Assembly: GCA_008711295.1 (NCBI GenBank)
Contig: VUYV01000088.1
Span: 2,807,812 to 2,871,811 of the forward strand
Reading direction: 5' to 3'
Length of the DNA stretch: 64,000 nucleotides
DNA from: Anarhynchus alexandrinus
Taxonomy: Eukaryota; Chordata; Aves; Charadriiformes; Charadriidae
Part shown: positions 1,122 to 51,377 of the stretch, piece by piece
How the letters are laid out: every line of letters begins with the position of its first letter
Numbering within the stretch: the stretch's first letter is position 1
Program-made: the position numbers and the translations under genes
The notes under the pieces: model-generated
The model's database searches: none
Told to the model about the DNA's origin: nothing
The model's input: only the letters and a program-made list of their open reading frames with translations

Positions 1122-1393
1122 TTACATTTTACTGCTGGGCTGTTCTGAAGCACTGCTGCTGTCTAAAGCGTTGGAGGAGCAGTTTCTAAGGACTTCCAAA
1201 GAGCTCGTGATATCCAGACTTTCAGAAGAAGCGGGTCTGCACCCTTCCGTAGAACTGATGATGTCCAAAGTTTTGGAAGAGCGGGCACTGTAGCCTTTCG
1301 CACTGGCATCTCTTACGACTATCTCCTGCATGGATGTAAACATTAACGGAACAAAGCCCTCGCTGTCCGCTGTGAGAACAATCCAAGATGAAC
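1122..1393 (-). CDS. WDCP: WDCP copy A, last coding exon
   Basis: The acceptor AG is at 1394-1395, after the run CGTTTATGTGTCTTCGCAG. The exon opens with the last two bases of a split Gly codon and reads on as [16 protein letters not shown], which matches the copy B last exon residue for residue over most of that block. The stop TAA is at 1122-1124. After the shared VRD motif the copies diverge. Copy A continues with a Ser-rich tail holding three imperfect 17-residue repeats (1280-1230, 1229-1179, 1178-about 1137), which copy B lacks. Confidence 0.88.
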
Positions 1394-4300
1394 CTGCGAA
1401 GACACATAAACGTCTGTTTATAAGTTTTCCTGTAATTGGGTATGTTTAAGGTATAAAACATATTTCTTCTAAAATTAAAGTTAAATGCTTCTGTATGTTT
1501 ACAGTTTTTCTAGGAAAAAAAAAGTATGGGGTGGTATAATCTCAAAAATAAAAGACAGTTAACAACTACGCGAAAGAGCTTTCTGACCCATTTTGCCACT
1601 AGGAGACAAAATTATAATAAATGCTCGCTTCAAATAAGGAGGAGGAATGAAATTCTGAACAGAATTCATAAGCATCCAGACTTGTTTTTAATTAGGTATT
1701 CGTAAGCTACTTCCCAGTGCTTAAGCTGTGCAGATACTGTAAAAAGCAGAAAATTATTACATTAAATGACAAATTAATATCATAAAACCAATTTAGAAAC
1801 CACTTCTATTATGTAATTTCAATGCAATTAATTCCAATAAACACAAGGAAGAAATACTGTGCAAACCCCACCTCTCTGGTCCATTTGCTATTTGACTTCA
1901 CATCATCCTTAGCATTATTTTTACAATTTGAAAGCGTTTACTGAATCCAAACCACTGACTTCTACCAATTCATATAAACCAGAAAATTTTCATACTTGTA
2001 TCCGCTAAGTTGATGAAGAAATAAAATGGAGCTTGTGGGGGTGAGGGAATTCAGAGAAACATTTCCAGCTGTTTGTAAATTTAAATTACGTAACTTCATG
2101 TCATAAGTAAGGTCATGAGAAGATTGTAGCTTAAAAGCACGCAACCCTTTAATCTTTTGGCTTAATGTCTCGTTTGGACCAAACTTCAAAATCAATACAA
2201 TTCAGAAATTTGAAAATACCATTCCTACTTTGCCCATTTATCTAGTAATGTTTGTAAAATTAATAAAGAAACCTACAGTAAAATTTATCTAGTAAATACG
2301 TGATGATTACTCATTCCTGGGCAACCAATTCTGTTAAGTTTACATTTTTAAGCTAAAAATGAGAAATGGAAACTAACATAGGCAATGGGGCCATTTTTCT
2401 TGCCAGAAAGAGTTGTTGTTCAAATTTCATAGCTCAAAATAAAATTCCAGTCTGAAAAATTAACAAATCAGTACCTACAAAACTGCCTACTGTTATCACT
2501 GCATCTATCACATGTTTCTGGGTTGTGTCACAACGTTATTAAAATAGTCACCGTGTTTCAATACAGGTAACCAATTCTGCAATGGGTAACGTAAGATAGT
2601 GGTAAGGACCTTTTCAAGACTCAGTTGCTAGTGAACTATGCCACTACAGTTTTATCTAGCTATTGGAATACTAAATATATTCCAACAACTACTTGAAGAA
2701 AAATAAAATTTGCACAATGGCGAGAAGAGCCGCCTTAAGGCTTTGGGATAGGTGCTCAGTAATCTGCAAGTAGGCAGGCAGCAGACAGGGCAGGCGAGTA
2801 GCTGGAACACGGTTTAGAGAATATCCACAGTGGTGGGAGATCATGTCCCAGAAGTGTGTTTCCTACCTTTGCCAAAAGGCAAGACACTTGGGATTGACGC
2901 ACACACAGACACACAGGACCAGAGTGGGATGAACAGGTAACAGCAGAGGAGACCATAGCAATAAGAAAGGTAGTTTTCTTCACAGCCAAAACTGAAGTGG
3001 AATGCACTGCTAAAATTTATAGAGCTACTTTTGTGTTTACAAAAAACTAGAGGATTTGGTAAAGGAGAGCAGATGCTGGAACTACAGATCAAAATTTAGA
3101 AAACTGTATTCCAAAACCACCAGTCAACTCTAATCTCCTCATTACTCAGACTTCTCTATTTAGAATAGCTGAAAATAAATAAAATACTGGGTGACAGTAA
3201 TTTTCCTGTATAATCAGCTACTTGCTAAGGGGGTATAAGGGGATATCAATACATGAAAGTTTGCTCTTTTTTTTTTTAATATGATGTAAAAATTCTTCTC
3301 AGTAGAAGCCCAGAGAAGAAGCTTTATGCTATAAAACAAATGAGCAAGCTTTTGTTCATAATCTTTCATTATGTATTCCTTGTTTTTTTTTCCAGATGGG
3401 ATTATGGATATTGCTATTGCTCACTGAGAATGTTGCATGTGTTTGAAGTGTTTGCATTATTGGATAATTACAACGTACCATGTTGCATTTCTACAAGAGA
3501 GAGATTGAATATCTGCTGGACTATATTTAGACGGAGTTTACCACCACAAAGAATAACAGCTCGTCTTTCATCTGAGTCACTTCTGGAAAGCTGCTTCTGT
3601 AAATTCAAGAAAGAATCATTAGATACCGTGATGTATATTTAAGCAGAGATGTCAAAATAGCATTAATCAAAACAGGATCACAGACATGCCTTAAACTACA
3701 TCATTTAAAGAAAGTCAAATGCTACATTCATTGAGACCCATTTGCAAGATTTATACTTCCAGGTCTCAGCTCTCAAAGTAATGATCTGTGAGCGATAGCA
3801 GCAAGTAGCTCTGCTAATTCAGCATGTGTCAGAACGACAGGAGAGGAAATCATACACTGCTGCTGAAGCAACCATGAGCTTCACCCACAGCGCAATCCTG
3901 GCTCTCACCCTCCCACCGGCGAGGGATGTTTTCCTGGGGAGTCTGTAAAGCTGCAGGTTTCCCATCCTCCCCTCTCCCTGATGCACAACTTATGAAGACA
4001 TGAGAACTGCCCATGAATGTTTGGGACAAGGAACAGACTAACGAATCAGAAGGGCTTGTTTGTCTCACCTCTGACCATCACTGCCCCAAGCTATAAAATC
4101 CAAAAAGCATCTTCAAAGAATATCCCCCACAGGGCAGAGCAAAGCATTTTTAAAATCTGCGAGAGATCAGTTGTTACCAAAACTACAAACTCTGTCTTTG
4201 CATAGGATAAAATTCACACAACCACATCGCTTCCCAGGGAAGCCTTGATAACATCTCCGGGTCATGACAAAGCCACGATAAAGTCAATTCCGACTCCTTT

Positions 4301-7300
4301 TCCATGCTGTGGACAGACCCATCCATCCGCAAGGAGGGCGCATGGTAGTGGGGAGGTTGGAGATGCACACATGCTCTTTTCCCCCTGCACTGATGAACTC
4401 TGCCCTCTCAAAGACACTGTTCATTTGGGACATTTTGGGTTTCCTCAATATTTTGTAAAATACAGCTAATAGCTCAGGCAGTAGAGAAAGGATCAGGGCT
4501 CAGCGCAGGAGGTGAGGATCCCTGTTCACCTGGTAACGATTTCTGAATCAAATATACTCTGATGGAAGTTAAAACACAGCATTTCCTGCCAAAATTTCCA
4601 ATGCCACTTGTAATTCAAAAGTCAAATGTTTGCTTGCCACAAATCATCAGTGATCACAATACGTAGGAAAAATTGTAGCATTACTTCAATTTGCAAAGCT
4701 CCCCCACGAAACGTAGCTGATCCAGCTCTTGGAACACCAAGACAAGCTGATAAGTAACTCAGTTTCAAACTATACGTAAAAAGAGAGCTGAATATAAAAA
4801 CGTAACAAAAATTTGTGCTGCCTCAAATTGACATAGGCTTCTAAACAAACACCTCAGATAAACGAGACACCAGACTTGCTGAGGGAAACTTTCGCTTTTC
4901 AGAGTAATGCCCCACATATAATTAAGATTTCAAAGAGCTAGAAAAATTACAGTTATTACAATTATTAAATATTTCCAATGGAAAACAGTGAAGAGAGTGA
5001 GGGAATATGATCTAGGACCTAAGAGTTCAATGCTACAAAAGTTGAGAATAGTAATTTTTTGCAACAATAAAGCTGAAAAATAAGAGCTTATTGAAAGGAA
5101 AACAGCACTTTAAATGACGTTGAATATTGACTAACCTTTATTAATCTGAATTCTAAACGAGACCTAGCAGATTTGTGCCATGTTTTGATAATCAAGTAAC
5201 TTACACATTCTAGCATGAGATTTGGAAGTGCCTTCTTTCAGCCAAGGAAAGTGTCTTTCACATGAAATTTGATTTTAAATCCATTTGTAAGCTATGTTAA
5301 TGGAATTATCTATTACGTCCCTAAGGGTCTCTTTCCTTGTCAGATGGTGCTCTCAATACTAATTAGCAACAGTTCAGTTTCAGAGCCAAAGCTTTTCGTT
5401 GTTTTGTTATGTTTCAGTCTTCATTATTTCAGTTGTCCCCACAGGAGGAGGTGAGATTGATACCAATTCCCATACATGGAAATTTTCACTTGTCTAAATC
5501 TCTAAACAGAAAGCTTCAGAAGTTGCCTATGAAAAACATTACCTTCCCGGAACTTTACACAAGTCTTTAATTCTGCAACTGAACCGTCACACGTGGGTTC
5601 TCTGGAGTCCCACCAGCACCTGGGCAGAAGGTACGCCTGCCTGGGCCAGAGCCAACGAGCTCAGCCCAGCGCGAGGCGGGGACAGGGAGCTGCACATTCC
5701 CCAATAGGACATCGCTTCAAAAACGCTGAAAGCCTGCAGAGTAATGGGACTTGTAACATTAGTCTCACCTGCAGGAGCAGGACAGAAATTTAATTCTACT
5801 GACCATTACATGATAATGGTCTTTTTTTTCCAGAAATGCTCTGGTTTTACCACTGGTACAGACAGCTGTGCAAGAATGAAAGCACTACTACAGCATCTGT
5901 CTGAAACGGGAATAATTTTAGATACATTAGTTTAAGTTTAGTTTAAAAAATTACCTGAAATATTTCCCTCATTCTGTCTCCCATCAGAGAAAAATACAAA
6001 TACGTAGTTTTAAAAGAACTGTAAATAGGGATTAAGATGTAACTACGGGAACAGCAGAGAAGAAGGACAACAAAAACAAGCCAGGCTTACGTAAAGCCTA
6101 AATAAGTCTAAATAAGACTCCTATTGGATTCACCTGCATGCAGCAAGATCATTCATACATACTGAATTTGTATGTACTAAACATTCATAGGATGTCATCC
6201 TTCCTGAGCATTATCTGACAAGAGTTTGTGCTTTAAATTCATACAAAGAACATACATCCATAAACAGCTTTTATCATTAAGGCTTCCAATATTAAAATTA
6301 CCTGGCAGGTGATGTTAATAAAAGCAGGTTCCTGAGAAGATGGGTAGACTGGAAGATTTCTCTTCCCAGATTTTAGCAGCTCAGTTAATTCACAGACATG
6401 ATGCTGTAATTCTGTGAAGTTGCCAGACAGTTTTTCTACATTTTTCGAAAAGTAACTCGCCTCCTTTTCACTTAATAGGTTATTCTTGTAAGAATTTGGT
6501 ATTTTGGAAGCTGCATCTGCCTGCCTTTTGGGAGATGTTGTCTTGTTAGAAAACGCCAGCGATGTGGCAGACAGTGCCACAGTCCGATTAACTGGTTCAG
6601 CATCGAGAGACTCAAGACCTGGAGGAAAATCCATGGAAATCTTTTTATCTTTGAGGTCACTCACGTTCAACAACAAGCTTTGTTCATAAACAGGACTCTT
6701 AATTTCTTCAATGAGTTTCCTTCTGCTGGTAGGGGACTGAATGGCAGCACGATCTGGTATCAAGAGTCCACGGCTGAGAGGGTGAACATCTGCAGGGAGA
6801 TCATGAGCTATGTTTGAAAGGTTCAAATTGGAGCTCCCACTAACTGATGAAGATGTTGAAGGACTCATTTCAAATATTAGTTCCTTAATCATCAGTCGGA
6901 CCATATATTTGTCTGATCTTGAAGAGGGAAGAAATGCAGGGTCAGTGAATTTTTGTCTTCCAACCAGTATCAGTAATAATTTATTGGTCAGGAAGCACAA
7001 ACCCTTTGGTTTCTCATTTTTCTCTAGCTGAATTTGCTGAATATTGGGTAAATTGGATGAAGTCAGTGAATAGACTAAAATAACGTTACAAGTATTGGAG
7101 GCAACCGATACAGTTTGAGTTTTGGCATCAAACGCCATTATATCAGGAACCAGAATGCCTGGGATGCTAACTTTTTTGGTAGAGGTAACCTTTCTTTCAA
7201 AAGTCACCAAGATGAGGTGTGAAGAATCTTGGCCGCTTCCCGTTAGGTAGTCCTTGGGCCTCAGATGAAGAAGAGGACTGGAATCAGCACCCTGCTTGCT

Positions 7301-8164
7301 AGAAAGTATGTGAGTTAGATCCACAGGAGATGTAACAACAGACAAGGACTTCTCAGAGTCCAGTGACTTTCGCCCCCCATCCATGGAATACTCTTCCTCA
7401 CCACATAAGCTGGACTGCGAGGGGAAGGACTCTGTTTCAATGCTCACTGGAACTTCAAATGCAACACCAGCATTTAAGCCACAGATCTTGTCTAGAGGAA
7501 GCTCAGTGGCAACAGCAACTTGGAAATTCAGAGTCGCTTCTACAGCACAGATGTAGCCTCCCACATCAAAGATTGGGCAAAAAGAACAAGGATCCAGTGT
7601 TTTCTGAGCATCATCCCAAATATAAGAATGAAGGGCACTGCCTACCCCGACTACTAAGCGGTTGCCTTCCTTTGTCCAACAAGCACAGTGGATGAGACCG
7701 CTGCCTTTAATATCTGCTTTAATTCTGGAGTTGTTGAGATGAACAGAGTGTAAGACGGAGGCATCCCGTGTGGTTAGCACAGCCAAGATCTCCTTCTTCG
7801 GATGCCACACGCAGCCTTGGGGAAGCACTGGAAACGGCTCACTGATGTCACATATCTGAGAAACTAAGAGCTTATTTCTTTCTGTAACATTAAAACAGAG
7901 CTCCCAAACGGTGATATGCTTTTTATGTTGAACAGCAAGCAGAGCTGGGGCATCAGGGGGACAAGGGCCCCAGTACAGTCCATGGACATGTTCAAACTGA
8001 CCGACAACACTTGAGTCACCAAATTTCGGTTCTCCATTATGAAGGTGTAAAGAAGTTAGTATCACCTGTTTCCCATCTGTCCAGGCAATGCCATGCACAG
8101 GGTGAATTGCTTGGTATAAGGCATTAAGGCCAGTTCTCAGCAGCTTTGCCTTTCCTAGCTCCAT
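1122..8164 (-). CDS. WDCP: WDCP copy A (WD repeat and coiled-coil containing protein paralogue), whole coding span
   Basis: Minus-strand gene with three coding exons: 8164-6302, 3596-3479 and 1393-1122. Joined they give 750 codons (621 + 39 + 1 split Gly + 89). The protein begins [16 protein letters not shown]. The first roughly 460 residues form the WD-like propeller region with conserved blocks such as [20 protein letters not shown] and [14 protein letters not shown] Ser-rich linker follows, then a short predicted coiled coil (about residues 568-598), then the C-terminal exons. Human WDCP is about 720 aa; from memory it is reported to bind the SH3 domain of the kinase HCK and appears in an ALK fusion, but its cellular role is poorly known. 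All splice sites are GT/AG, with phases 0 and 1. Copy B (36301-38220 and on) is a tandem paralogue with the same structure. Copy A is not next to FKBP1B, so it is probably the duplicate. No frameshift or stop is seen. Confidence 0.9.
1137..1280 (-). repeat. Threefold 51-bp coding repeat in WDCP copy A
   Basis: Read on the minus strand, three in-frame units follow each other: 1280-1230, 1229-1179 and a shorter 1178-about 1137. Each starts with two serines and carries a Leu-Asp pair (SSKTLDI, SSESLDI, SSNALDS), followed by Ser/Glu-rich residues. The 51-base spacing keeps the frame. The units differ at many bases, so the expansion is old, yet the frame is open to the stop. Confidence 0.75.
1394..3478 (-). 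other. Intron 3 of WDCP copy A
   Basis: About 2.1 kb between the middle and last coding exons, phase 1, GT at 3478-3477 and AG at 1395-1394. It is AT-rich. I see no exon, no CR1 and no clear repeat in it. Confidence 0.8.
3479..3596 (-). CDS. WDCP: WDCP copy A, middle coding exon
   Basis: A 118-base exon on the minus strand. The acceptor AG is at 3598-3597 (TTCTTGAATTTACAG before the exon) and the donor GTACGT starts at 3478. It starts in phase 0 and ends after the first base of a Gly codon. It encodes 39 residues including [20 protein letters not shown]. The matching copy B exon reads [20 protein letters not shown]. That aligned similarity with conserved intron phases is what identified this exon, since the exon is too short to stand out alone. 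Confidence 0.87.
3597..6301 (-). other. Intron 2 of WDCP copy A
   Basis: About 2.7 kb, phase 0, donor GTAATT at 6301-6296 and acceptor at 3598-3597. Mostly AT-rich and featureless. One GC-enriched patch lies at about 5585-5780 with several CpGs (see findings). No coding exon was recognised in it. Confidence 0.8.
6302..8164 (-). CDS. WDCP: WDCP copy A, main coding exon (start codon to propeller and coiled coil)
   Basis: This 1863-base stretch encodes residues 1-621. I chose the ATG at 8164-8162 because copy B starts with the same MELGK. The context is strong (A at -3, G at +4), and the reading frame further upstream is intronic pyrimidine tract. The exon itself starts at 8183, right after a TTTGTTTAG acceptor. 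Visible blocks are residues 1-37 (identical to copy B), [66 protein letters not shown] and IQQIQLEK. Residues 568-598 look helical and heptad-like. The exon ends in TGCCAG followed by GTAATT. Confidence 0.95.
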
Positions 8165-8183
8165 GATTTTTAATGTGAGACAT
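8124..8183 (-). promoter_or_regulatory. Overlapping upstream ORF at the WDCP copy A start
   Basis: The main exon of copy A begins exactly with ATG at 8183-8181, just after the acceptor AG. That ATG is out of frame with the WDCP start 19 bases later. It opens a 19-codon ORF ending in TAA at 8126-8124, inside the WDCP coding region. Its context has T at +4, weaker than the WDCP ATG. Such an overlapping uORF would be expected to lower WDCP-A translation by capturing scanning ribosomes. Copy B does not have it in the aligned position. The ORF is seen; its effect is inferred. Confidence 0.5.
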
Positions 8184-10540
8184 CTAAACAAATCAGACAA
8201 AAAAGAAAAAAGTTATTGTAGAAGATAGAGGATAACACCTGTACGATTATTTAGCTCATAACCCTGCCGATGCTGGACTCTTCCTTCCAATAAAGTCAAT
8301 ATACACATAATGTTCATCTATGCTTAATCCCCAACCATAGAACTTTTTGTTTATGGTGTTTCCACAGTGAAATGCAATTTTAAGAGAAATAAAATTTGCT
8401 GTTTACATAGGCTTAGTCTGCTGCATTTTCATCACAAGACCAGTTCTTTCATTCTAATCAACAGGTTGCTGCTTCTCAGAATATTTTTTAATTACTTCAG
8501 TATTAAAAATTTTCAAAATATCGCCTCTCACTCTCAGCTTCATGGACCATTTGTGATCAGATAAAGTAATCCCTTACAAGTATAACTGAGCATTAATGCA
8601 TTATCTATAAATCTGATCCTGTATTAAGTGGGTGAGAACGAGGCATTTGTATAGTTATTCCAGAAAGCTCTCTAAAAAAGCAAATGCAATTTTGAAGAAA
8701 GTTAGGATCAAAGCAGATTTTTCTGAGGTAATGCATGAGGAAAGAATTTAAAAGAACTTAGAACATGGGAGAGGAACAGACCCATCTACCTGAGGCACAA
8801 ATCGTACAATGAGTGCATATGAATTACTGGATTATAGGCAGAAAATAAAACAACAGAAAACTTGCATTCCAGTTATTTTTGAAAAAATAGGTTACATGAT
8901 TTGCCGGATGTCTCAAGAAAAGCCTTTTCAATTCTCTCTACATAACAGCTTCAAGAGGGAGAATGGGAAACTGCCAGCAATTATTATTCTCCGTAATCCG
9001 TAACCAAGTGTCTGGGACACCCAGAAGCCATATGCAAGGCACCAAAACTTCAGAAGGGTACAGGATTTTACACATATTTCTCGTTTTTGAGCTGTGAGTA
9101 ATCCCTACTCTGTGCACAGAAGCCAATTCAAAGGAATTGATGTTTTCCTCACTTAAGATTTTCTGTAGGATTTGGCTCAGCTGCACAGCCATGGCACAGA
9201 ACGAGTTGCAGCTTTAGTAGGAAACATAAGAAACAAGACGTGTTTGAGAAAGTCAAATTGTCAAACTGGAAGGGTTTATCACAATGTGCAGGGCCTGGCA
9301 CTACTCGGTATTTTAATTAACTATTTGTGCATGATCCCAAACTTGGAGGAAGGGGATTGGAAGAGTGGATTTCAGAGACTAAAATTAGATAGAAAAATTT
9401 ATGTTATGATGATCAAGATAAGATAACTTCTCAAACTAGTAACAAGCGCAAATAATATACTTAGTAAAGGAAAAAAACCTACGTGGATACCTCTTCAGGA
9501 ATAATTCCCTGGGTAGCAGTATAGCAAAAAAGAATCTGGCTTACAGGGGATCACAAATTTAATATTTCAGTAATGTGAGAATGTTGTCAAATAAGACCAT
9601 CTAGAATGCTTTTAAGAGGGATGCCATACATGAGGGAGATAATTACCTCCCTTCCTCAGAGCTAACAGTATTTCCACTAGAGTACTGAGCCTAGTTTTGA
9701 GTTTAACTGTCCAAGGATGATGGAAATGCTTAACAGAGCTCAGGGATCAGAGAAACATGAGAAGTGGGTTCACTCAGTTTGGAAAAGACTGTGAGTGGAA
9801 ACTTGCAAACACCCACCAGGCTGCTGACAAGAGAAGACTGATCCATTGTTGTCCAGGTCTACTTGTATAGCACAAGATAATAATCAGCTTAGTTTCAACA
9901 AAGGAGATTTAGGTCAGCTATTAAGTAAAATTCTACCTATAAATGATAGCTAAGCATTGAAGCAGGTTACCTTGGAAAGGGGGAGAAGGCACTCCATGAA
10001 TTTCATGACCTATAAGAGCCAATTAAGTAAATGTCTGTCAGGGATAAGTTTAAGTACACTGGATCCTGCCTCACGGCAAGAGAGCACTCGAGATATCTCC
10101 CAATCAACTTCTCCACCATCTACCTGGCTCTCCTCTAAACTCCAGTATAACCGAACTCGATCTCGTTAAGCAACCGCCGCTTGTGGGAAAACCAAAGCGT
10201 TAGTTGCTCGTTCTTTAGGACTCTGAATCACGTGTACACTGCTGGGCAATACTTACCAATGGAAGAGAGATGATAATGTGCCTCATAAGATATGCTGAGA
10301 TACTAAGCCTCCTGGGCCATCTGGACAGTTTCCCCTGATGCAAGAGATGTTTCACACTATCCCGTGTGGGCCTGGAAAGCAAAAGCAGCAAAACACCCAC
10401 TGGTCATCACACTCCGGTCACCTGGTGCCCAAACCCCCCTTCCCTTGGCCCACCACTGCTTCCAGCTGCGCACCCCATGGATGTTCCATGGATGTTCCAT
10501 GGATGTTGATGGCATCCAGCTGCACAGGCCACGGTGCTCA
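8184..10540 (-). other. Probable intron 1 of WDCP copy A (5' UTR intron)
   Basis: The acceptor at 8185-8184 (poly-pyrimidine run, then TTTAG) shows that a non-coding exon lies upstream, most likely in the CpG island to the right. A candidate donor with consensus GTGAGG sits on the minus strand at 11017-11012, after GGCGG. Another, GTACGTG, is at 11414-11408. The intervening DNA is AT-rich and I see no gene in it. Confidence 0.55.
10475..10507. repeat. Three tandem copies of an 11-bp unit
   Basis: CCATGGATGTT occurs three times head to tail at 10475-10485, 10486-10496 and 10497-10507. The 11-base period does not keep a reading frame, which argues that the open frames crossing it are not coding. 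It lies on the left shoulder of CpG island 1. Confidence 0.85.
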
Positions 10541-11430
10541 GGGTGTCAAGGTGTGCCGCTGCCGCCGCGCCTCCCGCCAGCCGCCTCCTCCCCGCTGGGC
10601 AGCCCCTCCGCAGCCGCCCCGGGCCTCGCCTCACGCCCTCGCCCTGTCCCCGGCCCGGCAGAGGCCGAGCTCCCCCGGGGCGGGTGTAGCGATGCTGCCA
10701 CAGCCCTGCGGGCAGGCCAGGGTGCTCGGCGAAACACGGCGCCTGTCCCCAGCCCCTCTGGGCAGCCGGCGGGGTTGGGAGGAGACGCTGCAGGGGACAC
10801 TTCGGCAGCCACCGCCGCGGCGGGGCACCGGGTGGCCATGGCAAGGGAAAAGGCAGAGCGCCCAAACCCGCCCGCCCGCGCCGCTTCCCCCGCGCCGCCA
10901 CCCGCCCGCACCAGCGAGCTGCCGCTCCCGCCGCGGGCCCGCCCGCACCGATATTCCCCACCTCCCACCAGCGGCCCGCCCGCTCCTTCTCCTCCCCGCC
11001 ACGGCCAGCAGCCTCACCCGCCCGCCGGCTCAGCCCGGCTCCGGTGAGGCGGTCCCCGCCACCGTGCAGCGGAGCGCGGCGCTGGGCTGTGGCGGGAACC
11101 TCCCCGCCCGCGGCCCGGTCCCGCCTCCCCGATGCCCAGCCCCAGCACCGCCCGGCCGGGAGGGGCGGACAGCGGCGCTCTAGCCGGGCACGCCTGAGCT
11201 CTATGACCCCGCGGGAGGCGCCTACGAGGGGCGGGCGGTAGAACTACAGCTCCCAGGAGGCAACGGGGCGGGGCGGTGGCGTGTCCCGCCTACTCCCCCC
11301 CCACTCCCCCCTGCGGCGGGTGGCGCGCGCCGTCTCCTCAGGGCGCCCCAACGGCCGCCGCCGCTGAGGTGACAGGGACTTGTCCTCTCCATCGCTCCCG
11401 GGGGTGGCACGTACCGTGCAAGTTTCAAGA
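10540..11430. promoter_or_regulatory. CpG island 1, likely WDCP copy A promoter
   Basis: A sharp change to very GC- and CpG-rich sequence within AT-rich DNA, with many GGGCGG-type (Sp1-like) boxes, for example around 11225-11275. It lies 2.4-3.2 kb upstream of the copy A coding start, on the correct side for a minus-strand gene whose 5' leader is spliced. The long open frames here on both strands (about 10338-11183 plus, 10407-11017 minus) follow from high GC and lack any recognisable domain. It may also fire to the right, but no partner gene was recognised there. Confidence 0.75.
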
Positions 11431-14400
11431 ATTATTTGGATCCTTCTGTGCAAGATAACGATGCAAAATGAGATATATGCCTGCTTTGTTTTGTACCTTT
11501 TCTTTTTTTTTCCTTGGTGTTAGAGTCGATCAGAAAATGGTATTGTCTCAACACTTGGGAAGTCACACTTAAGAAAGCATATAAATACGATACAGAACTA
11601 CTTCATTACAAATTCTTTGGTCCTGAATTATTGCACTGGGCATAACTTCTAAGTCTCTGAGGCCTTTTTTAAAGTTAATTATTTTGCAAGACTGTGCCAC
11701 TTTATCACTACTTAGCACTGCAGAGCAGTCTGATCATCGTACAGTTTTTGAAACCCATATTTTTGAAGGATGTTGAAACACTGGAAAAGGTACCTTAAAG
11801 AGCTGCCAAAGGTATGAACAAAATGCTTGAAATGGTTGCAAGGTCAAATATGTAAGTAGCTCAAACTTACTGAAAGAGGAACACTGAGTGGTGACTTGGC
11901 TATACTGCATGACTGCCTTTCCAGTGAAAAAAAATCTCAACGAAATAGTTCTTTTAAGTTAGTGAAGGAAGGTTTAACAAGAGCCATGGATGGATTCAAA
12001 TAATTAAGGCACAGCTGTGAGTTTGATTGACCACTCGAACAAACTACCAACAGAGCAGATCCTCTACATGCATCTTCAAGTTAAAACTTGGTGGCTTTTA
12101 GGGACATTATTTAAATGCAGATTTTGTGGCAGTCACAGACTAATTTCTGAGCTCAATGTATGGGGTTTAGATGAAATTCGATGGCCTGTGATGCAGGTGA
12201 GGATATCTATGCATCTGTGGGTTACAAGTTAAAATTCCATGTACTGTTTCAATCCCAAAAAGCTCAATGTAATTCGACTGTTTTATACCTGACAGGGCAC
12301 CTGCAAGATGCTGAACGGTAGGTGGGTGTGTTTTAAGGACTGCAAGGAGTAAGAACTCTTCTTTTACGTGATTATACTGGAAAAGGTTTGTGGAAGAGAA
12401 ATTCCTGGCATTCAAACTGAAAGTAGTTAGTTTCCAGCTTTTTTTGGAAGCTTTTTCAGCAAAGGAGAAGTGGCCACAGGATAAAGACAGGAAAGTCTGG
12501 AGGTGGAGAATAGGATTTGTTTGAACTGTTGTATTTTTGAAATGAAAGAGCCAGCTTCAGACCCTTAACACTATGAGTTGCAGTAAATTAAAAAAAAAAT
12601 AATAAACACAACTGTTTCTAAGATAACGAATAGATTTCTAAGGTTGAATTTTTAGTGTAGAAGGATAAGCAGTGGACCCAAATGCCAGCTTTTCTATGTT
12701 GCTCCACAAATACACTGTCAGGCGTATGAGAATTTATCAAAAAATGAACACACACAGTTATGGTTTCTCCTTTCTATTTTCCTTTTCCTCTATCATTAAC
12801 AATAGGCAGGGTGCAATTGTATAAAGAAAAAGCCCAAACTAGCCCAGAATTGAAAAGGAAATCTGAAAAATTGCCTGTAGAAATTTACTCTTATGTTCAC
12901 AATATATGTTAATACACTCTCAGGGTTAGCGCCTTAGTATATTATGCCTCTCAGAGAGGTGAGCAGAGACGAGCCCTCCTTGAGAGATGGCAATGGAGAT
13001 AATTTTATTTGCTTTTGTTCTTTTAGCTGTGGGAAGTACACACTTAGCACAGTTATAAGAACAGAACAGCACTAGGAATTTCTGCTCCCTCTTGCCTGTG
13101 CCTGTGTTGCACCTGGTGGGTTGGTAAGGGTTGTTTTGCAGTTTTCCAGTTCAACTCCCTTCTCTCTGCAAGACTGCATATGCTTGAACACTCAATACTG
13201 TATTACAGCAGTGACTGGCATAGAAAGTGCCTGGGGTGGTTGGTTCTGTGCATTGCAGAGGGTAAGAAGGAGCCTGTGCTTTCAATCTTGTTCTCCCCAT
13301 GGGTAAAAAATAAGAGTGAAAAATACACGTCCTAAGGCACTAATGATATGCCCTGTGATTTTTTTAGATTGATGGTGATGTGCTTTGAAAATGGTGTCAA
13401 GCCACCTATAAATAAGAAAACTTTTAGGGACGTGTTTCATCAGTGAGACCGGCCATGTAGCGTTTTACTCGGTGGCCGGCACCGGAGAGCCGGCTCTGAG
13501 CTCTTCCCCTTGTGTTTAAGGCAGTTAGCCACCAGAGGGCTTTACTAGACAGTAACAGTTTGCTGAGTATAATTATATTCCTGTAATCTCTCAAAGAGTC
13601 TTGCTTTCATATAAACTTAAATTGACCATCCATATTAATATACAGAAATAAACATTTAAAAATAATTTTATTGGGTGGAGAGACGACAACTTAAGAATTC
13701 CTCAGAAGATATTTTCACATTAAATGTTTATTTTTGTTTCCTATGCCTATAATTATACAAATAAATATTTTTAAAGACTTTTATTTTCATCATGTAAATT
13801 CTCTTATATGTATAAAGGCTAATTGAGTTCTACAAATGAACTAAAAATATCAGCAAAACTTGTGGTTATTTGAAAATCTGTAAAATACGGTCAGTTGCAT
13901 AATATTTTGATTGAAATGGAATTATCTCAGCCTACAAGAGTGCTGGGATGGTGTGTAGGTAGTTATTATTGGACCTAGGTGTTTATTTCCATGCCCAACA
14001 GTGTGTATCTTATTTGCATAGCCACAGGCTGGTTATTTCGCAATGTAGAAGAGGATGAAAATTGCTGTAGGCTACTTGGCCAGTAGCCACTAGCCACAGC
14101 TAGTCCCACAGCCATGATGTGCATAGCCACAGCACTTATTTCTCAGTTGCTGTAATGCTAATAAACATCTCGTTTTCTTTCTTTTTTCCCCCAGTCTTTT
14201 CAAGCTGTTTACTGCTGATATATATGATGCAGCTGTTACTTCAAGGATTTAAATGATGCAGAACCCCTTAGGAGATGTATATAAGGTAGAAACGGGGAAA
14301 TGAAATTATGCAAGGAAAAGTGTTTAAAAAACTGAAATTATAGAATTTGTTTGCTATGGTCATGCTCATTTAAAACACACATTTTGTCGTTTAAAAATAT

Positions 14401-15076
14401 GTGCTTACACTGAGTCAGACTTATCCTTAAACACTGAACAGTCTCACAAATCCGTTCTCAGTCCCTGCACTGAGAATAGATTTGCGTTCTCATAACTTAA
14501 TTTGTTGTATCATTTGGGTGTCTGCTTTTCAAATTAGTTTAAAACACAACATTAATAAGAATATAGGACAGTCTGAGAAAGAAGAGTTATGAATACCTGT
14601 TAAAGGGAAAGAATGGCAGGGAAACAAGGTGAAATGGGTGTGATGGGGAGACATGCTGTAGAGTTATTATTTATGCACTCTGCAGATTTTTTTCTTTGCT
14701 TTTATTGAATATGTACACATTCAAAGAATGTAATGTTATAAGGGAAAATAATCATTTGAAGATACTTCCTGTTAACTTCATAAGCGTCATTTAAAAAAAA
14801 AAAATTCATCCAGGTTATGGACACTACTGACTGAGCAAGCTGATCTCATCATCATATTTCTTAATGGAAAAACTTAATGAGGCACTTTCATGTAATTTAG
14901 ACCCCTAAAATATGATGTGGTAAAGCCTAAGATCAGTAGCTAAAAGGTATAGATGTTTTGTGTGCTTTTTGTTATTAGATTAAAAATGTTTCTTCTTGAT
15001 TTGGGGAGGTGATTAGTAATGAAGATAATAGAAGATGAGCAATTTTGCAGAAAATTACCTAGACCTGAGTCAATAT

Positions 15077-15204
15077 GATGCTGTACCAAGAAGGCAGACA
15101 TCCTTGTGGGATGTGTGAACAGGATTATTGTGTGCGAGATGATGCTGTAACAAGAAGGCAGACATTGTTGTGGGATGTGTGAACAGGATTATTGTGTGTG
15201 AGAC
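15077..15204. repeat. Tandem duplication of a 64-bp unit
   Basis: Two head-to-tail copies start with GATGCTGTA at 15077 and 15141. They differ at only a few positions (for example CATCCTTG against CATTGTTG, and TGCGAG against TGTGAG), so the duplication is fairly recent. No reading frame or known element explains it. Confidence 0.9.
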
Positions 15205-17311
15205 ACATGAGTCTCTTGTCTGTTCTGCTTGGCTGAGTAAAGCCAGAAGGGGTCACAGTATTTCCATAGTGTAGGCAAAACTGATTTTTGTGCTCTGTAG
15301 CAGATCTTGCAGGGGGTTCCTTGTGGCTCCAGGCTTTGAGGTATGGAGAGGATCAGTGAAAATGTTTGGGATTAGGACAACGACAAAGTGAGTGGGAATT
15401 ACTGCTTTTCTCTGCAGCAGTAGCTACCACACCTCATCTCCTGAAGCAGCTACCATTCCATGTCTCCTGGAGCCTGCCTTAGCAGGTTGGACTTCAGCAG
15501 GTCCAACACTTTGGTGGTTGTTGTAGAGACAAAAGAGAAATAGGCTCTTGTCCAAATTAGTCCAGACATGTCCATGCCTAAGAAGGCATGGGCAATGCGG
15601 AAAACTCATACAGGGATGTTTTGTCACCCCCTGCAGTTGTTCACGCTGTGACAGCCTATTTTTTCTTTATGTAAAAACCTACACCAGTGCTTTTTCTGTG
15701 TCTGAAACAGGCCTTCAACTAAATTCTACTAACTGCTGCAGTTTAAGAGAGATACTGGATGCTCGCATAGAGCAGAGTAACAAAAGGTCCAGGGTGGATG
15801 TCTATGAGAGAAACTGGAGGAGTGGTATTGCTTAGAGAAAAGAAGGCTAAAGGGAGATGTAATGGACATAACAGTTTTCAAGTATTTAACAGACAGCTAC
15901 AAAAGACAAAGGACATAAACCATGAATAGTCAAAATCTCTGCTTTGAGGCAGGAAAATGGACCTTTCAGTCCACTAGCATAAAGCTCTATGTGAAATGAA
16001 TGTACTTGCACTGCTGTGAAAGTGCTACAAAGTAAAAATTAGTCTCCTGACTAGTCACACAGTTTGTTGTGTACCATAAATACGTGCAAAACCAAAATAA
16101 CATCATATATATTAAAAATGAGATAGTCTTTTGAGAGTCTTTCTGTTTTAAAATTGATTTGCATAAAGAATTATGTTGTAAATGAGGACTTTTGATATGA
16201 CAGTGTTCCTTTGGAATAATCTTTCCAAGGACATTTCAGGCATACCTCTTCAGAACAAATAATATCTTCTTTTAAATTACACATCCTTGTAACTGTGGTT
16301 AGTCTAGAACCAAGATAATATACAAATCACATCCTTACAGATATTTAACAATATCATACAAGAGAGACTGTTCAAATCTCAATCTTTCTAGTAGGCACCT
16401 GGAGTTCCCTTTTACTTGTGCCACTGTGTATAGACACCTTTTCTCCTTCTTCATATATCTTGCTGTGAGAACCCTTTCTTGTGGCAGTAAACAATTCAGT
16501 CCTAGATGCTTCTGTCTCCTACTGTTGCCTTTTTTGTTTTCCTTTTATGTAACTAATCTGCAAAAGCACTACTTTCATCTTTGCTACTTCTTAGGTTAAT
16601 CCTGCATTTCAGGCACACTGTTATCATGCACAGTTTTCTTTTATGCTATTAACAGGTACAAGTGTTTTGAGATAACAGTGTATCAATGTAGATCTGTGTA
16701 GCTACATTTTGTGTTGATAACAATATCATTGATATCTAAATAAAATGTTAATAAGGAAAGGTAGACATGGAAACGGAGATGACAGCTGGATACAAGTTAC
16801 ATGAGCATAAGAATATTTACAAACTGAATGTGAAATCGTGACTTGTTTGAAGTTCAAGGGAAATTTTGACAGAAATTTGCAGTGGAGCCAGTATTTTGAC
16901 TTATGCTTTTTTTGACTTATTTGACTTATTTTTAGGTGAACTAAGTTTCTGAAGGAAGGATAACAAGGGAAACAATTAGCATCATACTTACAAATCAAAT
17001 TGTGACTAGTTTGTTATGTGTTGGTTATGCTATCTATGGTAGCTAAAGTGTAAAGAAATGCAACTAGTGGTATTACAAAATGCAATAAAGTGTTAAACTT
17101 AAAAATAAATTTATTGATAATTACAGAGACACAGAATTCAGTGATAGATAAAAGGTATGAGATATGACAGCAGTGGGCTTGTTAGTAATTTGTTGGTGTG
17201 ACTTAAGGATCATGATGCCTTCTCCACTACGCTGTCATAACTCGGCAGCTGAGCTGTAGGTTGAATTGAGAAACTGATCCACTTTATAAGTGGTTTGGTA
17301 GGTATTTTTAG

Positions 17312-22849: not shown

Positions 22850-22855
22850 TTTATT
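22850..22855 (-). terminator. Candidate poly(A) signal of WDCP copy B
   Basis: TTTATT on the plus strand reads AATAAA on the minus strand, about 330 bases beyond the copy B stop codon at 23185. That is a similar distance to the one in copy A. It is only a hexamer and spacing argument. Confidence 0.35.
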
Positions 22856-23184: not shown

Positions 23185-23351
23185 TTATGTCACTCTGCTT
23201 GGTGGTCGCATTGAAATGCTTTTTTTGTGGGATTGACCTCCACAGACTTCTGAACTGTCAGTTCCGTCTCTTATGATTATCTCTTGTGTTGCTTTGAATA
23301 TTAACGGTACAAAGCCGTCCTTGTCTGCAGTGAGCACAATCCAGGAAGAGC
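23185..23351 (-). CDS. WDCP: WDCP copy B, last coding exon
   Basis: The acceptor AG is at 23353-23352 (after TTTTTGTAG) and the stop TAA at 23187-23185. It completes the split Gly and encodes [20 protein letters not shown] followed by TQEIIIRDG, then a 25-residue basic tail. Copy A has [16 protein letters not shown] in the same place. The exon is 35 codons shorter than that of copy A because the Ser-rich repeats are absent. Confidence 0.88.
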
Positions 23352-26300: not shown

Positions 26301-29300
26301 TCATTTCTCATAAGACAGAGTATACCAATTAAGCCAATATGTCTCAGCTTGTCAGGGTTTAAGACAAGGGGTAAGACAGAGAGTAATTTATGGATCTCTC
26401 AGTGTGGAAACCTTGCAAGGAGATCATAATTATAGCCAACTACTGTGTACTGTAAGATGATGATATACTTAGACTGTGATGAGAAAAGCCATCAGAAGCA
26501 TTATAGAGAACTAGCTAAAAAATAACAGGATGTATGTTGCTGAGAAAGTAGCATACATGAACAGACAGGGACAAGGTGAATCAAGAGACCAGTCTGGGGC
26601 TAGGTTTTCCCTAGTTGCTTCTGTTCTTACAAGTTAATCAGTGGTGGGTGGTAGAAATGTGAGACTGGCAAATTAGAACATTGAGCTTCATTGTTTATCT
26701 TACATTAAAATAATCCCAAATGCTACATGATACATATATATATATATATATATATAATGTTCTGAGAATGAATTTTTCTCCAACCTACTCTCTGTTGTCA
26801 CGTCTGGGACATGCTTATAAAGATGGGCAAAACAAAATGCCAGAAGGTCTTAAGGAAGCATTTCTATTTGCAGGCATTACAGTGTACTGATTATTTTCTC
26901 AGCCTTCCTCTGTAGAGGCATCTAATATATTACTCTGGTAATAGGTAGTTCTGCAGTTACTTAGCATTCAAGTGATTTCAAGAGACACTCTGCCATATTT
27001 CAGACAAAGAAAAACACATACTTATCAAAAAAAGTTAGCTATCTCAGTTTACTACAGTATGGGGTAATAACTGTACCACAAATGCCTCTTTTAAGCTAAA
27101 AACCTTAGGTGAAGTCAGATACCAGAAATAAAAAGAACATACCGTGTTTCATTTCAATAACAGGCAGATCAAACAGCTGCTGGACTAAATTCAAATGGAT
27201 CTTGCCATCACAGAGGAGAACATCTTTTGTTTCTTCAGTAACTGCTCCATTTGAAAAACTTTTCTTCAAATGCATATATGTAAAAGAAAAGATCTTGTTA
27301 AAGGCTTAGACGTTGTGCCTGAGTTCTTTTAACCATTCCTCTGCTCTTACTCCTTTCAGTTCTTTAGTCATTTTGCTTTTTCTTTGTCTGTCTTTTTGCT
27401 ACAATTTATAGATGATACCATCATGCAGTGCAATTCTAAACACAATCTCACAGTCCCATGTGAAGAGGAATATGCCTTTTTGCTTTTTGCTTTGTGTGCT
27501 TATGCAGCTCAAAACTGCATCAGCCCCGTATATATAATGAATCGGGTCATGCATATATGCGTCCATTGGGCCCTTCTGCCTGAAGAATCAATTCAGTGGA
27601 AGGGAATATATCATGCCTGGAATGAAGTTGTCCAAGATGCTACCAGAGCAAATGAGTACTCTGCTCAGTTTCAATTGTACGCGTGGGTGGTTTTGATAGT
27701 CCTTGGTCAGCTATTCCACCCCAGTAAAATAACCTCAGTCCTGACACAGAGAGAATTGCAGAGACTGGACAGTGACAGTCTCTCTGAAAAGCTGTCATAA
27801 CAAGGTAGCTTGCGCATCCTGTGGCTTTCTTTGAGAGAGAGGGAATGTATGGATTTACAGCCCTGGAATTTGCTCTGACATTCACTAAAAGAACACACTT
27901 GCATATTCATGCTCCATGAAGTTTAGCTGGCCTTGAGAATCAACACCTTTGTGTTCCATCATTGTTATTACTGCAAAGTGCAAGGACCACAAAATAGTTG
28001 AGCTAATATGATTATGGAGTGGATATATATTTGCATTTACATTTTCCTATCTGCTATCATTTGAAAGTCATTTTAGCATTAAAAATTTTCCAGGGACTCA
28101 ATACCATTATAAAATATAGGTGAATTGGACATTTTCTTCTAAATATACTTTGCTAAATATATTTTACTAAATATACTTGCTATGCTTTGTCCTGTGAATT
28201 TCATTTTGTTCTTTCCTCTTCGTACTTTCCACCTGTGTAGTTCCCATGTGTTATGGTATTTTTTCCTTTGGCATCCCTTATGTTTGCAATCCCCCCAGAT
28301 TTAACATATTTGTTATTTGAATGAACAGTCTATGTATCCCATTTCCTAGGCTTTTCTGGTTTGTACATTCAGAAGGGATCCAAGTTAATGTTTTACAATG
28401 GGTTGAAGAGATGTCATGCATCCTAACTCTTATTCTAGTCCTACCCTGTCTGTGTCCACTTCGTACCCTTGAATCTTTCTTGCTAGTATGAAACTTACAG
28501 TGGAATGACTTCACAACCACATCTTCTATTTCTGTGCATAGTAATCTATCCTTTGACTAAATAAACGTCTCTTTTAATGCTTGTCTTCATTTCTAATTCT
28601 GCTGTCTTCTGACTCAGTTGTTCTCTCAGTGAACACATGCTTTTTTGCTGTGTAACAACCTTTCTAAATCAATCACTTTCATTTTTCTGTACATATTATG
28701 TATGCTGTCATGCAACCACATTGCATTCTGTAAATCAGAATGTCTACCGACTGTTGCAAAAGTACTTTTTCCCCACTCTGTCATAAATTGGCCATGCAGA
28801 TAGTCTATGGCTGATTGTTACTTATTTATGTATTATGATTGATTGAAGATGTAAGAACCATAAAAATATCTTTCCATTAAAAACGTAAACTTCCCAACTT
28901 TCAAAAGTCTTCTCATCTCTTTCCCCTTTCAAAACAGCCAGAAATTTGTTGCTGTGTAATTAATAGGGAAATACGTAAGGAATGCATCAAAGGAGTACCA
29001 TTTTCTTCATCATAAAGGTACAGTAACTTTATTACAGCTATAATATATAACAGAACTTCTTTGTCATTTTTAGGTCTCTTCAAAGTATATAGTACTATAT
29101 TCTGTTGAACCTAAATACACTTAAAACACAATGGGCTGAATGTTCAGCAATGAGCATGTGTTTTGCATTTACATTGCAAAGATGCTATTTGCCTGTACAG
29201 ATATTTGTGCAAAGCTTTTCATTGCTGCATATTGTGGATTAGTACATCTAACAACTACTTCATTTTCCTGAATTCAGGTTGAAATAGCAGAGTTTATTAA

Positions 29301-35300: not shown

Positions 35301-38220
35301 TCAGTTTAATGTTAGTATTAGTGCGAATAATACTAAGAATAATAGCCAGAAATAATTACCCAACTTACATTCCTTAGTTGAAAGTCTTATTGAAGCCAGT
35401 AGGAATTTTGCCAAAACAAGGGTCGGATAGGAACATGGTGATTTGACATTCGTCTATTTATTTAATGAAATTACAATTGCATATTGACAGATATTTTCTT
35501 CAGAAAATTTGAAGTGGTAACATTTTTCTCAAATTGTCTATGTCCAGCTCTGTGAAGATTAGTGGTGAGAAATTAAAGTAGAATTAAGCCAACTTCATGT
35601 CATGCCCATCTGAATTTTCCATAAATTGAGATTCAATACTTTGTTTCAGCCTTCATGAGACTCTAGCTATCTTCAAACTTTGGATCTGAGCCGGTGTTTG
35701 AATTTATTTCATAGAATTATCATAGAATCAGAATGGTTAGGGTTGGAAGGAACCTTAAAGATCATCTTGTTCCAACCCCCTTGCCGTGGGCAGGGACACC
35801 TTCCACTAGACCAGGTTGCTCAAAGCCCCATCCAGCCTGGCCTTGAACACCTCCGGGGATGTGGCATCCACAGCTTCTCTAGGCAACATGTTCCAGTTTC
35901 TGGTGGGCTACTGCACCACCCTACTCATAGGCTCATCTCTACACTAAATTAACATATAAACCTTTTGTACATTAACAACTGTTTGGCTCTGTTTTCTCTC
36001 TTTGACAGATGCACAAAAGATCAGCTAGTGTCCAAGACAGTTGTGCTTAATCAAAGAAGAGCAAACAGACACAAATCTCCCATGTGAAGTATCCTCTGAG
36101 TTACCCACATCATCCTGAGTTATTGTTTCAATGACAAATTATAATACTATTTTAAATTAAGCTTGATGCCACTCAGGTTACATTTCTCATGTGTTGATAA
36201 GAATTAAACTGCATCCTCTTGATTTAAAGGTCAATAAATACAAGATTGTTTAAAAATTCAATGTCCTATCACAATATTTTTAAGCTGACAAAAAAGTTAC
36301 CTGATAAGTGATATGAACGACAGGTGGTTCCTGTGAACACGGATAGGCTAAAGATATCCTCCTCCCGTTTTTAGCACAGTCTGTTATTTCAGAAAGACTC
36401 AGTTGTAACTCATTGAAGCTGCCACAAAGCCTCTCTAAATTTCTAGATATGTGACTCATTCCTCTTTCACTTGGCAAATTGTTGTTTTTAGGAGAACTTG
36501 ATGTTTCTTGGATCACATTGAACTGCACTTTAGGGGAGGTTGGTCTGCTGGAAAGCCTGGTAGGTGTTCCAAAACCAAGAAGAGACACTGAACGCTTGGT
36601 AGGTTCAGCATCCAGTGTATCCAAGGCCACCGAGGCATCACCTGGGAGCCTTTTTTCATCCAGATCGCTCACACTTGATGAAGAGCTCTGCTCATAACTA
36701 GGGCTTTTTGCTTCTTCATTGAGTCTTCTCCTGCCACTAGGAGATTGAATAACTGTGCTTCTTGGTATTAGCAGCTCCCTGCTTTGAGGTTGGTCTTCTG
36801 TGGCAATATTTTCAAATAACTTTCTTTTTCCAGGAATATTCACAGAGGATTCAAAGTTATAAAACATATTCTGCTTTGTCTCAGGCAATGCTGAAGAATC
36901 TTCTTCCAGCATCAGTTCTTTGATCATCAGGCGCATTACATACCTGTCTGAACTTGAAGATGGAATGAGACTAGGCTCAGCAAACTTTTGCTTCCCAATC
37001 AGAATCAATAGGAGTTTATCTGTCAAAAAGCATAGGCCCTTTGGTCTTTCATATTTTTCCAGCTGTATTTGTTGAATATGAGGCATGCAAGAAGAGGTTA
37101 CTGAATACACCAAAACAATGTTAGAAGTATTAGAGGCTACTGCCACAATCTGAGCTCTAAGGTCAAAAGCCATTATATCAGGAACCAGAATACCTGGGAT
37201 GGTGACTTTTCTGGTGGTGGTTACCTTCCTCTCAAAAGTCACCAAGATCAAGTGAGAAGAATCTTGACCATTTGTGGCTGCAGAGTCTTTGCGTTTCAGA
37301 GTAATAAGAGGACCAGGATCAGACCGACGGTGGTTTGCAAGGATATGGGTTAAATCCACAGGACCTGACGAAGAAGAAGCAACTGAATCAACACCTGATC
37401 TATCTGAATCTGTGGACTTTCTTCGCAGGTCCATGGAGTATTCCTCATCACCAAGCACCAGAGCAGACTGTGAGATTAAAGAACCAGTTTCTGTACCAGA
37501 TGGCACATCAAATGCAATGCCCGCATTCAAACCACAGATATTATCTAAAGGAAGCTCAGTAGCTACAGCAATTTGGAAATCCAGTGTGGCTTCTATAGCA
37601 CAGATATAACCTCCCACATCAAAGACTGGGCAAAAGGAGCAGGTACTTAGAGTTTTCTGAGCATCATCCCATATGTAGGAATGCAGAGCACTGCCTATAG
37701 CAACTACTAAACGATTGCCATCCTTAGTCCAGCAAGCACAGTGGATAAGCCCACTGCTTTTGATATCTGCCTTAACTCTAGTATTGTCAGTACGAACAGC
37801 ATGCAAGACTGAAGCGTCTCTTTTTGTAAGCACAGCCAAGACCTCCTTCTTTGGATGCCAGACACAGCCCTGGGAAAGCAGTGGAAACGGCTCACCAACT
37901 TCACAAGTCTGAGAAATCAAGGGTTTGTTCTTCTCTGCAGTGCTGTAGCCCAGCTGCCAAATGCTAACATGCTTTTTATGCTGAACAGCAAGCAGAGCTG
38001 GGGTGTCTGTAGAGCAACATGGGCCCCAGTAAAGCCCATGAACATGTTCAAATTGACCAACAACACTTGAGTCTCCAAACTTTAGTTCTCCGTTATGATA
38101 GTATAAAGCAGTCAGTATCACTTGCTTCCCATCTGTCCAGGCAATTCCGTGCACGGGGTGGATGGCCTGATATAAAGCATTGAGGCCAGTTCTCAGCAGC
38201 TTTGCCTTTCCCAGCTCCAT
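23185..38220 (-). CDS. WDCP: WDCP copy B (WD repeat and coiled-coil containing protein), whole coding span
   Basis: Minus-strand gene with three coding exons: 38220-36301, 27263-27143 and 23351-23185. Joined they give 735 codons (640 + 40 + 1 split Gly + 54). The layout matches copy A: a WD-like N-terminal region, a Ser-rich linker with basic QSP..RR motifs, a short coiled coil at about residues 587-617, and a C-terminal domain split over two small exons. Introns are much longer than in copy A (about 9.0 and 3.8 kb). FKBP1B lies head-to-head on the right, the arrangement I recall for human WDCP, so this is the positional orthologue. The C-terminus differs from copy A after the shared IRDG/VRDA motif. 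No disabling change is seen, so both copies look functional. Confidence 0.92.
26221..26255. repeat. TA-rich microsatellite with ACTA interruptions
   Basis: A (TA)n run is interrupted by AAACTA twice, so a TATATATATATAAACTA-like unit is duplicated. Simple sequence inside WDCP-B intron 3. Confidence 0.85.
26734..26756. repeat. (AT)n microsatellite
   Basis: An uninterrupted AT dinucleotide run of about eleven units inside WDCP-B intron 3. Likely length-variable. Confidence 0.9.
27143..27263 (-). CDS. WDCP: WDCP copy B, middle coding exon
   Basis: A 121-base exon on the minus strand. The acceptor AG is at 27265-27264 (after TATATGCATTTGAAG) and the donor GTATGT starts at 27142. It encodes 40 residues including [20 protein letters not shown] and ends in EMKH plus the first base of Gly. 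Phase 0 in and phase 1 out, as in copy A. It is one codon longer than the copy A exon, and its first ten residues are poorly conserved. Confidence 0.86.
27423..27800 (+). other. Unidentified ORF antisense to WDCP copy B intron 2
   Basis: From the first ATG (27423) this frame stays open for 125 codons to a stop at 27798-27800. The frame is open to 27384 upstream without an ATG. A pyrimidine run ending TTTATAG sits just upstream (about 27396-27411), resembling a splice acceptor. The peptide has a central hydrophobic Trp-rich stretch and a Gln/Asp/Ser-rich end. I recognise no domain. Length alone is marginal in AT-rich intron DNA, so chance is quite possible. Confidence 0.2.
29925..30095. repeat. 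Old MIR/L2-like fragment
   Basis: The stretch from TTTTTATAGATGATCAAATC through ATTCAAGGTCATGCAAATAA and on to TGCCTTAACCCAAAGACCAT follows the familiar order of the CORE-SINE/L2 family in its reverse reading ('cattttacagatgaggaaac ... cccaaggtcacacagc ... cctaaccact'). It is heavily diverged. The family call is from memory of the consensus. Confidence 0.5.
33975..34065. repeat. Old interspersed repeat fragment, family not assigned
   Basis: The run CTCTGCCGTGCTAGGGATTA, followed by a TACAAACAC stretch, resembles a motif ('gtgctaggcgctgtacaaacac') common in an ancient amniote repeat. A second related piece is at 46495-46575. I cannot name the family with confidence. Confidence 0.35.
35710..35935 (-). 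mobile_element. CR1 LINE, 3' end fragment
   Basis: Minus-oriented CR1. It opens with CATAGAAT octamers (the reverse complement of ATTCTATG), then GGTTGGAAGGAACCTTAAAG and the rest of the CR1 3' UTR, reading back toward the end of ORF2 at about 35900. It lies in intron 2 of WDCP copy B, close to the donor. It is 5' truncated and inactive. Confidence 0.93.
36301..38220 (-). CDS. WDCP: WDCP copy B, main coding exon (start codon to propeller and coiled coil)
   Basis: Encodes residues 1-640. The start is the ATG at 38220-38218 (AAAAAGATGG context), the same MELGK start as copy A. The frame is open 36 bases further upstream, but without an ATG. Residues 1-37 are identical to copy A, and so is [20 protein letters not shown]. 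In those 37 codons I count 13 synonymous and no amino-acid-changing differences. Copy B differs mainly in the linker between about residues 455 and 580, where it has its own Ser-rich stretches ([12 protein letters not shown]). The exon ends TATCAG followed by GTAACT. Confidence 0.95.
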
Positions 38221-51373: not shown

Positions 51374-51377
51374 CGCC

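Follow-up and report, generated by a model that had tools for sequence, protein, structure and literature searches.

Two intact WDCP genes in tandem in the bird Anarhynchus alexandrinus, probably an old pair of which mammals kept one

Two intact WDCP genes stand in tandem on the minus strand of a 64,000-nucleotide stretch of the genome of the bird Anarhynchus alexandrinus (assembly GCA_008711295.1, contig VUYV01000088.1, positions 2,807,812 to 2,871,811), here called the window. Copy A encodes 750 amino acids and copy B 735, and the gene order is MFSD2B(+), A(-), B(-), FKBP1B(+). Each frame runs uninterrupted from ATG to stop across three coding exons, all on the minus strand. Exon 1 of copy A (6302..8164) encodes residues 1-621, with a predicted propeller, a disordered linker and a coiled-coil-like helix. 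Exon 2 lies at 3479..3596 and exon 3, which carries the long C-terminal tail of the A type, at 1122..1393. In copy B the exons are at 36301..38220 (residues 1-640), 27143..27263 and 23185..23351, the last carrying a short B-type tail that ends in SRVT. The introns of both genes have phases 0 and 1, and all four are bounded by GT-AG; their lengths are 2705 and 2085 nt for A and 9037 and 3791 nt for B. An AATAAA lies 333 nt downstream of the A stop codon (window 788) and 329 nt downstream of that of B (window 22855). These gene models agree with an earlier note on the same DNA, which described two complete minus-strand WDCP-like genes with equal exon number, intron phases and splice sites. The note placed the copies about 12 kb apart. 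The distance from the start codon of A to the stop codon of B is 15.0 kb, and 12 kb fits only if counted from a CpG island at 10.5-11.5 kb.

The Pfam WDCP model, PF15390, matches exon 1 of A with 985 bits and exon 1 of B with 1038 bits, the cut-off being 25.3. A search of the 1.19-Gb assembly with this profile gave six matches (10 candidates scored), one for each exon of A and of B, and no third copy or pseudogene was among them.

The two proteins are identical at 443 of 710 aligned residues (62%). By simple count the nonsynonymous divergence (dN) is 0.26 and the synonymous divergence (dS) 1.37, which is near saturation. The lowest dS of any 60-codon window, found at the N terminus, is 0.76; with no tract of low synonymous divergence, recent duplication and gene conversion are ruled out. 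In a blastn self-comparison (E 1e-5) the likeness between A and B was confined to exons 1 and 2, and none was found between their introns, as the note had said of the latter. Its view that the duplication is old also holds, given the 62% identity, a dS of about 1.4 and the retention of both copies well beyond birds. Eleven bird and two turtle species, chosen because both of their copies are present among the proteins listed below, are 0.77-0.93 identical to the window's copy A and 0.79-0.93 to copy B. Over exon 1, 12 of these 13 species show greater divergence in A than in B, the average being 1.28-fold. Copy A is 93% identical to that of Athene and 92% to that of Columba, and copy B 95% to that of Gavia. 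Both daughter genes would have stayed under purifying selection since the duplication.

Protein searches gave 287 distinct proteins, each list holding the best 120 of 693 or 694 matches. Best matches assign 127 of them to the A type, 96 to the B type, 48 to mammals, 10 to fish and 6 to amphibians. Among the matches listed, A-type proteins range from ratites to songbirds and occur in alligator and turtles, and A and B occur together in at least eleven bird and two turtle species. The earlier note had considered that the open frame of A might be lost in related birds; with 127 of the 287 proteins being A-type, this was not found. In Dromaius, Rhinopomastus, Bucco, Heliangelus, Hylia, Bombycilla, Melospiza, Athene and the turtle Carettochelys the two copies are listed on equally long contigs (in Rhinopomastus, both on a contig of 119,676 bases), so that in these nine A and B very likely lie on one chromosome or scaffold. 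In Calypte, Merops, Apaloderma and Tinamus the A and B rows are on contigs of different size. All 19 lepidosaur rows among the matches listed are B-type, lists of 120 being too shallow to exclude an A gene in that group. No mammal is named among the 120 best matches to B exon 1. The lowest score in that list is 868 bits, less than those of the snake, sturgeon and coelacanth rows, and its rows without a species label are B-type with 90-91% identity. A mammalian B as conserved as these would appear in it, within the predicted proteins of that database.

Three complete A proteins of 749-760 aa (P0129-P0131) come from contigs of 2.6-2.8 kb that cover all three exons. Because A spans 7.0 kb of the genome here, these look like spliced transcripts. 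B-type records of 676 aa (P0038 from Anser; P0040-P0042, P0045 and P0051) end inside intron 1 with similar sequence, and are possibly a short isoform or genomic contigs.

Trees were built from 37 and 45 hand-picked rows and rooted on elephant shark. They contain an A clade of birds, alligator and turtles (support 100/100) and a B clade of birds, crocodilians, turtles, squamates and tuatara (100/99 and 100/100). WDCP of ray-fins, coelacanth and elephant shark is of the same family and of similar length, and the fish rows, coelacanth and ray-fins included, fall outside the A-B split. Amphibian WDCP, also of similar length and of this family, has a frog tail that resembles B, and its six rows form a clade of their own. 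In the best tree, of 45 rows, seven placentals stand beside A with support 89/81.

Mammalian WDCP belongs to the same PF15390 family over nearly its full length and has in common with copy A a long C-terminal tail. It differs in being one gene, as far as seen, where this bird has two, and the placental protein evolves faster (stem 0.67). A-type proteins have about 60 residues past a conserved IIRD block; B-type proteins have about 25, and most of them end with -SSVT or -SRVT. A strict A-tail pattern fits 114 of the 127 A-type proteins, 7 more fit by eye and 6 end before the tail; none of the 96 B-type proteins fits. Placental proteins that reach the C-terminal end carry a tail like SQSLDPGPSLEIFRDYTAQSLDTTG. 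Two of the 48 mammal rows have no anchor motif and 23 have a tail shorter than 30 residues, which leaves 23 to be tested. Compared with the turtle A tail, 16 of the 23 gave scores matched by at most 10 of 1000 shuffles and 18 by at most 50; compared with the turtle B tail, none matched at 50 or fewer. In a separate test, the tails of six hand-picked mammals were compared with three tails of each type. Against the A tails, those of dugong, elephant, rhinoceros and leaf-nosed bat scored 47-73, with 0 of 3000 shuffles in all twelve comparisons, and the weakest matches were those of orangutan (1, 10 and 101 of 3000) and marmot (97, 115 and 23 of 3000). The 18 comparisons with B tails scored 15-22, with at least 442 of 3000 shuffles. 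Mammal tails gave no match to the tails tested from frog, salamander and sturgeon (at least 248 of 3000). The tail of the frog Ascaphus scored 42 against turtle B (0 of 3000) and also matched alligator B (2 of 3000) and lizard B (18 of 3000). The simplest reading is that the tail of mammals and that of sauropsid A were inherited from one source.

The orthology was also examined by topology tests and by diagnostic sites. On the 45-row tree, the approximately unbiased (AU) test gave p 0.048 for mammals with B, 0.195 for mammals with amphibians, 0.139 for amphibians with A and 0.033 for amphibians with B. A second test compared five topologies on 50 rows, 17 of them mammals, over 700 columns, each occupied in 80% or more of the rows; the columns end at A residue 711 and so omit the tail core (A residues 712-750). 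Here p-AU was 0.389 for mammals with A, 0.133 for mammals with B, 0.479 for mammals outside A+B, 0.36 for amphibians with B and mammals with A, and 0.677, the best, for amphibians beside mammals+A. The protein body by itself does not decide the orthology of mammalian WDCP, and the AU tests do not separate a tetrapod-stem from an amniote-stem date of duplication. At strictly polarised B-derived sites, mammals hold the ancestral residue at 5 of 5. The diagnostic sites therefore suggest that mammals are not B and are, weakly, A.

Together, tail, best tree and missing mammalian B make it probable that the duplication predates the mammal-sauropsid split, that mammalian WDCP descends from A and that B was lost in mammals. 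A number of observations weigh against this. The strict A-tail pattern fits only 1 of the 48 mammal rows, 5 of the 23 tested tails are without a match to turtle A even at 50 of 1000 shuffles, and the shuffle tests ignore kinship, so that related mammals are not independent tests. The likeness of the Ascaphus tail extends to turtle A (13 of 3000) but does not reach alligator A (1240 of 3000), and the tail of the salamander has no clear match to either type. The deep branching is nearly a star and the mammal stem is long (0.67). Without the tail core all five topologies stay in the AU set and mammals with A is not the best of them. At the six strict A-derived sites mammals share one, keep the ancestral residue at three, differ at one and vary at one. 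When polarity is taken from amphibians only, 3 sites pair mammals with A and 2 with B; taken from fish only, 1 pairs them with A and 2 with B. No marsupial or monotreme row is among the listed proteins. Nor was a spliced B transcript found among six short-contig B proteins examined, because P0033, P0040, P0041, P0042, P0045 and P0051 run past the exon 1-2 border. Finally, 35 nt of the 3' untranslated region (UTR) of B weakly resemble the DNA of the A tail (15 of 2000 shuffles with dinucleotides kept), with a score of 26 against 17-20 for eight other stretches. A first test at the DNA level gave 2 of 500 shuffles, and the lowest of nine comparisons in protein frames gave 38, 87 and 89 of 2000. 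Such a relic, if real, means that the tail could predate the duplication and would be less telling on mammals.

Several of these points would suit a duplication in the sauropsid stem, after the mammals had split off, with mammalian WDCP equally related to A and B and no loss in mammals. An A+B clade with mammals outside is not rejected on the 45-row tree (p 0.215) and reaches p-AU 0.479 without the tail core, the sharing of 1 of 6 strict A-derived sites is of the same tenor, and the possible relic in the B 3' UTR (15 of 2000) would make the tail ancestral. Set against this are the mammal tails, which match A in 16 of 23 cases and B in 0 of 23 and matched no frog, salamander or sturgeon tail (at least 248 of 3000), and the best tree, which joins mammals to A (89/81); so late a duplication is unlikely. 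The earlier note had taken B to be the orthologue of mammalian WDCP and A to be an extra gene, since B adjoins FKBP1B. That B adjoins FKBP1B is borne out, B may share its CpG island, and the AU test keeps this topology over the 700 columns. The orthology drawn from it does not follow: MFSD2B flanks A just as FKBP1B flanks B, so that A sits on the MFSD2B side of the same interval and position is neutral. The topology is moreover the lowest of the five (p-AU 0.133) and is excluded by the bootstrap proportion from resampled log-likelihoods (bp-RELL, 0.017) and by expected likelihood weights (c-ELW), its p on the 45-row tree is 0.048, and mammal tails match A and none matches B. This assignment is very improbable. 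Least credible of all, and refuted, is that A and B are two alleles, a duplicate created by the assembly or a processed copy; no observation in favour of this was found. Alleles would not differ to 62% amino-acid identity with synonymous sites near saturation (dS about 1.4), intron positions are conserved and intron sequences are not, and eight bird species and one turtle list both genes on an equally long contig. The note had named an allelic or artefactual origin as the result that would overturn its claim, and it is rejected.

The preferred reading, a duplication older than the mammal-sauropsid split, can be laid out as follows. A single WDCP gene between MFSD2B and FKBP1B would have undergone tandem duplication together with its introns, in the amniote stem or earlier and after the split from the coelacanth line. 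Copy A would have kept or gained the tail of about 60 residues and copy B would have had the short tail, of a frog-like kind. Birds and turtles, and probably crocodilians, would retain both copies; lepidosaurs are here seen only with B; and mammals would have kept the A lineage as human WDCP/C2orf44, no B having been found in them. Most likely this was an ordinary duplication of a gene followed by unequal loss, as happens often, and older than the earlier note supposed.

The flanks of the pair are consistent with this interval. Two open frames on the plus strand, about 15-17 kb to the left of the window, match MFS_2 (PF13347) and are taken to be exons of MFSD2B. Coding exon 1 of FKBP1B lies at 51378..51416 on the plus strand (13 of 13 residues) and the core of its coding exon 2 at 54195..54245, also plus (17 of 17). 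No later FKBP1B exons were found in the window or the next 10 kb, and a query for SF3B6 gave nothing better than a match of E 6.4. The mammalian order is MFSD2B-WDCP-FKBP1B, here with WDCP doubled. A CpG island upstream of copy A (10501..11500; GC 0.71-0.77, CpG observed/expected 0.79-0.89) is likely to be its promoter. A second island, at 51001..52000, covers FKBP1B exon 1 and may in addition serve copy B as a promoter, in a head-to-head arrangement with FKBP1B. The sole N of the window, at 51373, is inside this island, five bases ahead of the FKBP1B start codon. Between A and B, at 15075-15203, a 65-nt unit occurs twice, head-to-tail and 94% identical. Within B intron 1 an antisense open frame of 155 codons (27333-27800, plus strand) has no Pfam match and is probably due to chance. 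An interspersed repeat, presumably of CR1 type, which is a guess, occurs at 4-261, 35721-35897 and 59268-59403, that is at the left window edge, in the first intron of B and downstream of exon 2 of FKBP1B; the copies are 77-87% identical and inverted. The flank to the left of copy A has fragments that by eye resemble the reading frame of a retroelement, and some of this flank consists of N.

Each copy would encode an adaptor, with a WD40-type propeller, a linker that is disordered, a helix of coiled-coil type and a small domain at the C terminus. The AlphaFold2 model of A exon 1 is weak, with 24 sequences and a mean predicted local distance difference test (pLDDT) score of 47. Strands appear in it at 25-220 and at 314-430, together with a disordered linker and a single helix at 566-598 with pLDDT of about 44-62. 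Its neighbours in the PDB are WD40-type proteins of many kinds; the best Foldseek matches include PP2A B55 and the WD-repeat domain of WDR91, with template modelling (TM) scores to the target mostly of 0.4-0.57. The Pfam propeller models match only below their cut-offs. Most likely the function of both copies is the same, with regulation or partners split between them.

The linker of some mammalian proteins holds the motif P..P.R.[NS][LVI], found in 15 of the 48 mammal rows (P0235, P0242 and P0243 among them) and in none of the other 239. A motif of this type reportedly binds the Hck SH3 domain, and it is possible, from its distribution, that placentals gained SH3 binding. Hck SH3 binding as an ancestral function was rejected, the specific motif being only in placentals. 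Looser SH3-like motifs are common in both groups: 38 of the 48 mammal rows and 169 of the 239 others have them in the last 40% of the protein, and this argument against ancestral Hck binding therefore says little.

A fuller account, for which our confidence is evenly balanced, puts these elements together. The amniote, perhaps tetrapod, ancestor would have had a two-gene WDCP locus that was then sorted differently, both copies staying in birds, crocodilians and turtles, B in lepidosaurs and A in mammals. Human WDCP would be one half of this ancestral pair, the loss of its B counterpart having escaped notice, and B may share the CpG island promoter of FKBP1B. Placental WDCP would then have evolved fast and gained an SH3-type linker motif that none of the other listed proteins has.

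Both genes are already listed by RefSeq, under the automatic names 'WDCP' and 'WDCP-like', in birds, turtles and crocodilians, and by sequence these models are orthologues of A and B. The names ignore the clades: in emu A is 'WDCP' and B 'WDCP-like', in the turtle Carettochelys B is 'WDCP' and A 'WDCP-like', and the chicken 'WDCP' row is B-type. Among the titles and abstract openings listed for WDCP and C2orf44, none was about a WDCP pair, and the ten listed of 497 matches to a wider query name neither WDCP nor C2orf44. The suggestion in the earlier note of a lineage-specific or widely overlooked gene thus fails in its first part for birds, A being also in alligator and turtles, and half stands in its second. 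Human C2ORF44/WDCP is named as a RUVBL1/2 partner or client of the R2TP co-chaperone (PMC5974087, PMC13153604), and an ALK fusion of WDCP is mentioned (PMC4695188). As the names do not follow the clades, carrying over function from human WDCP, such as the ALK fusion or the partnership with RUVBL1/2, to the B-type chicken 'WDCP', for example, is probably transfer between paralogues. The WDCP pair is of some value for gene naming, orthology and the transfer of function, and a two-copy locus with opposite losses would offer a clean natural test of the roles of the tail and of the second copy.

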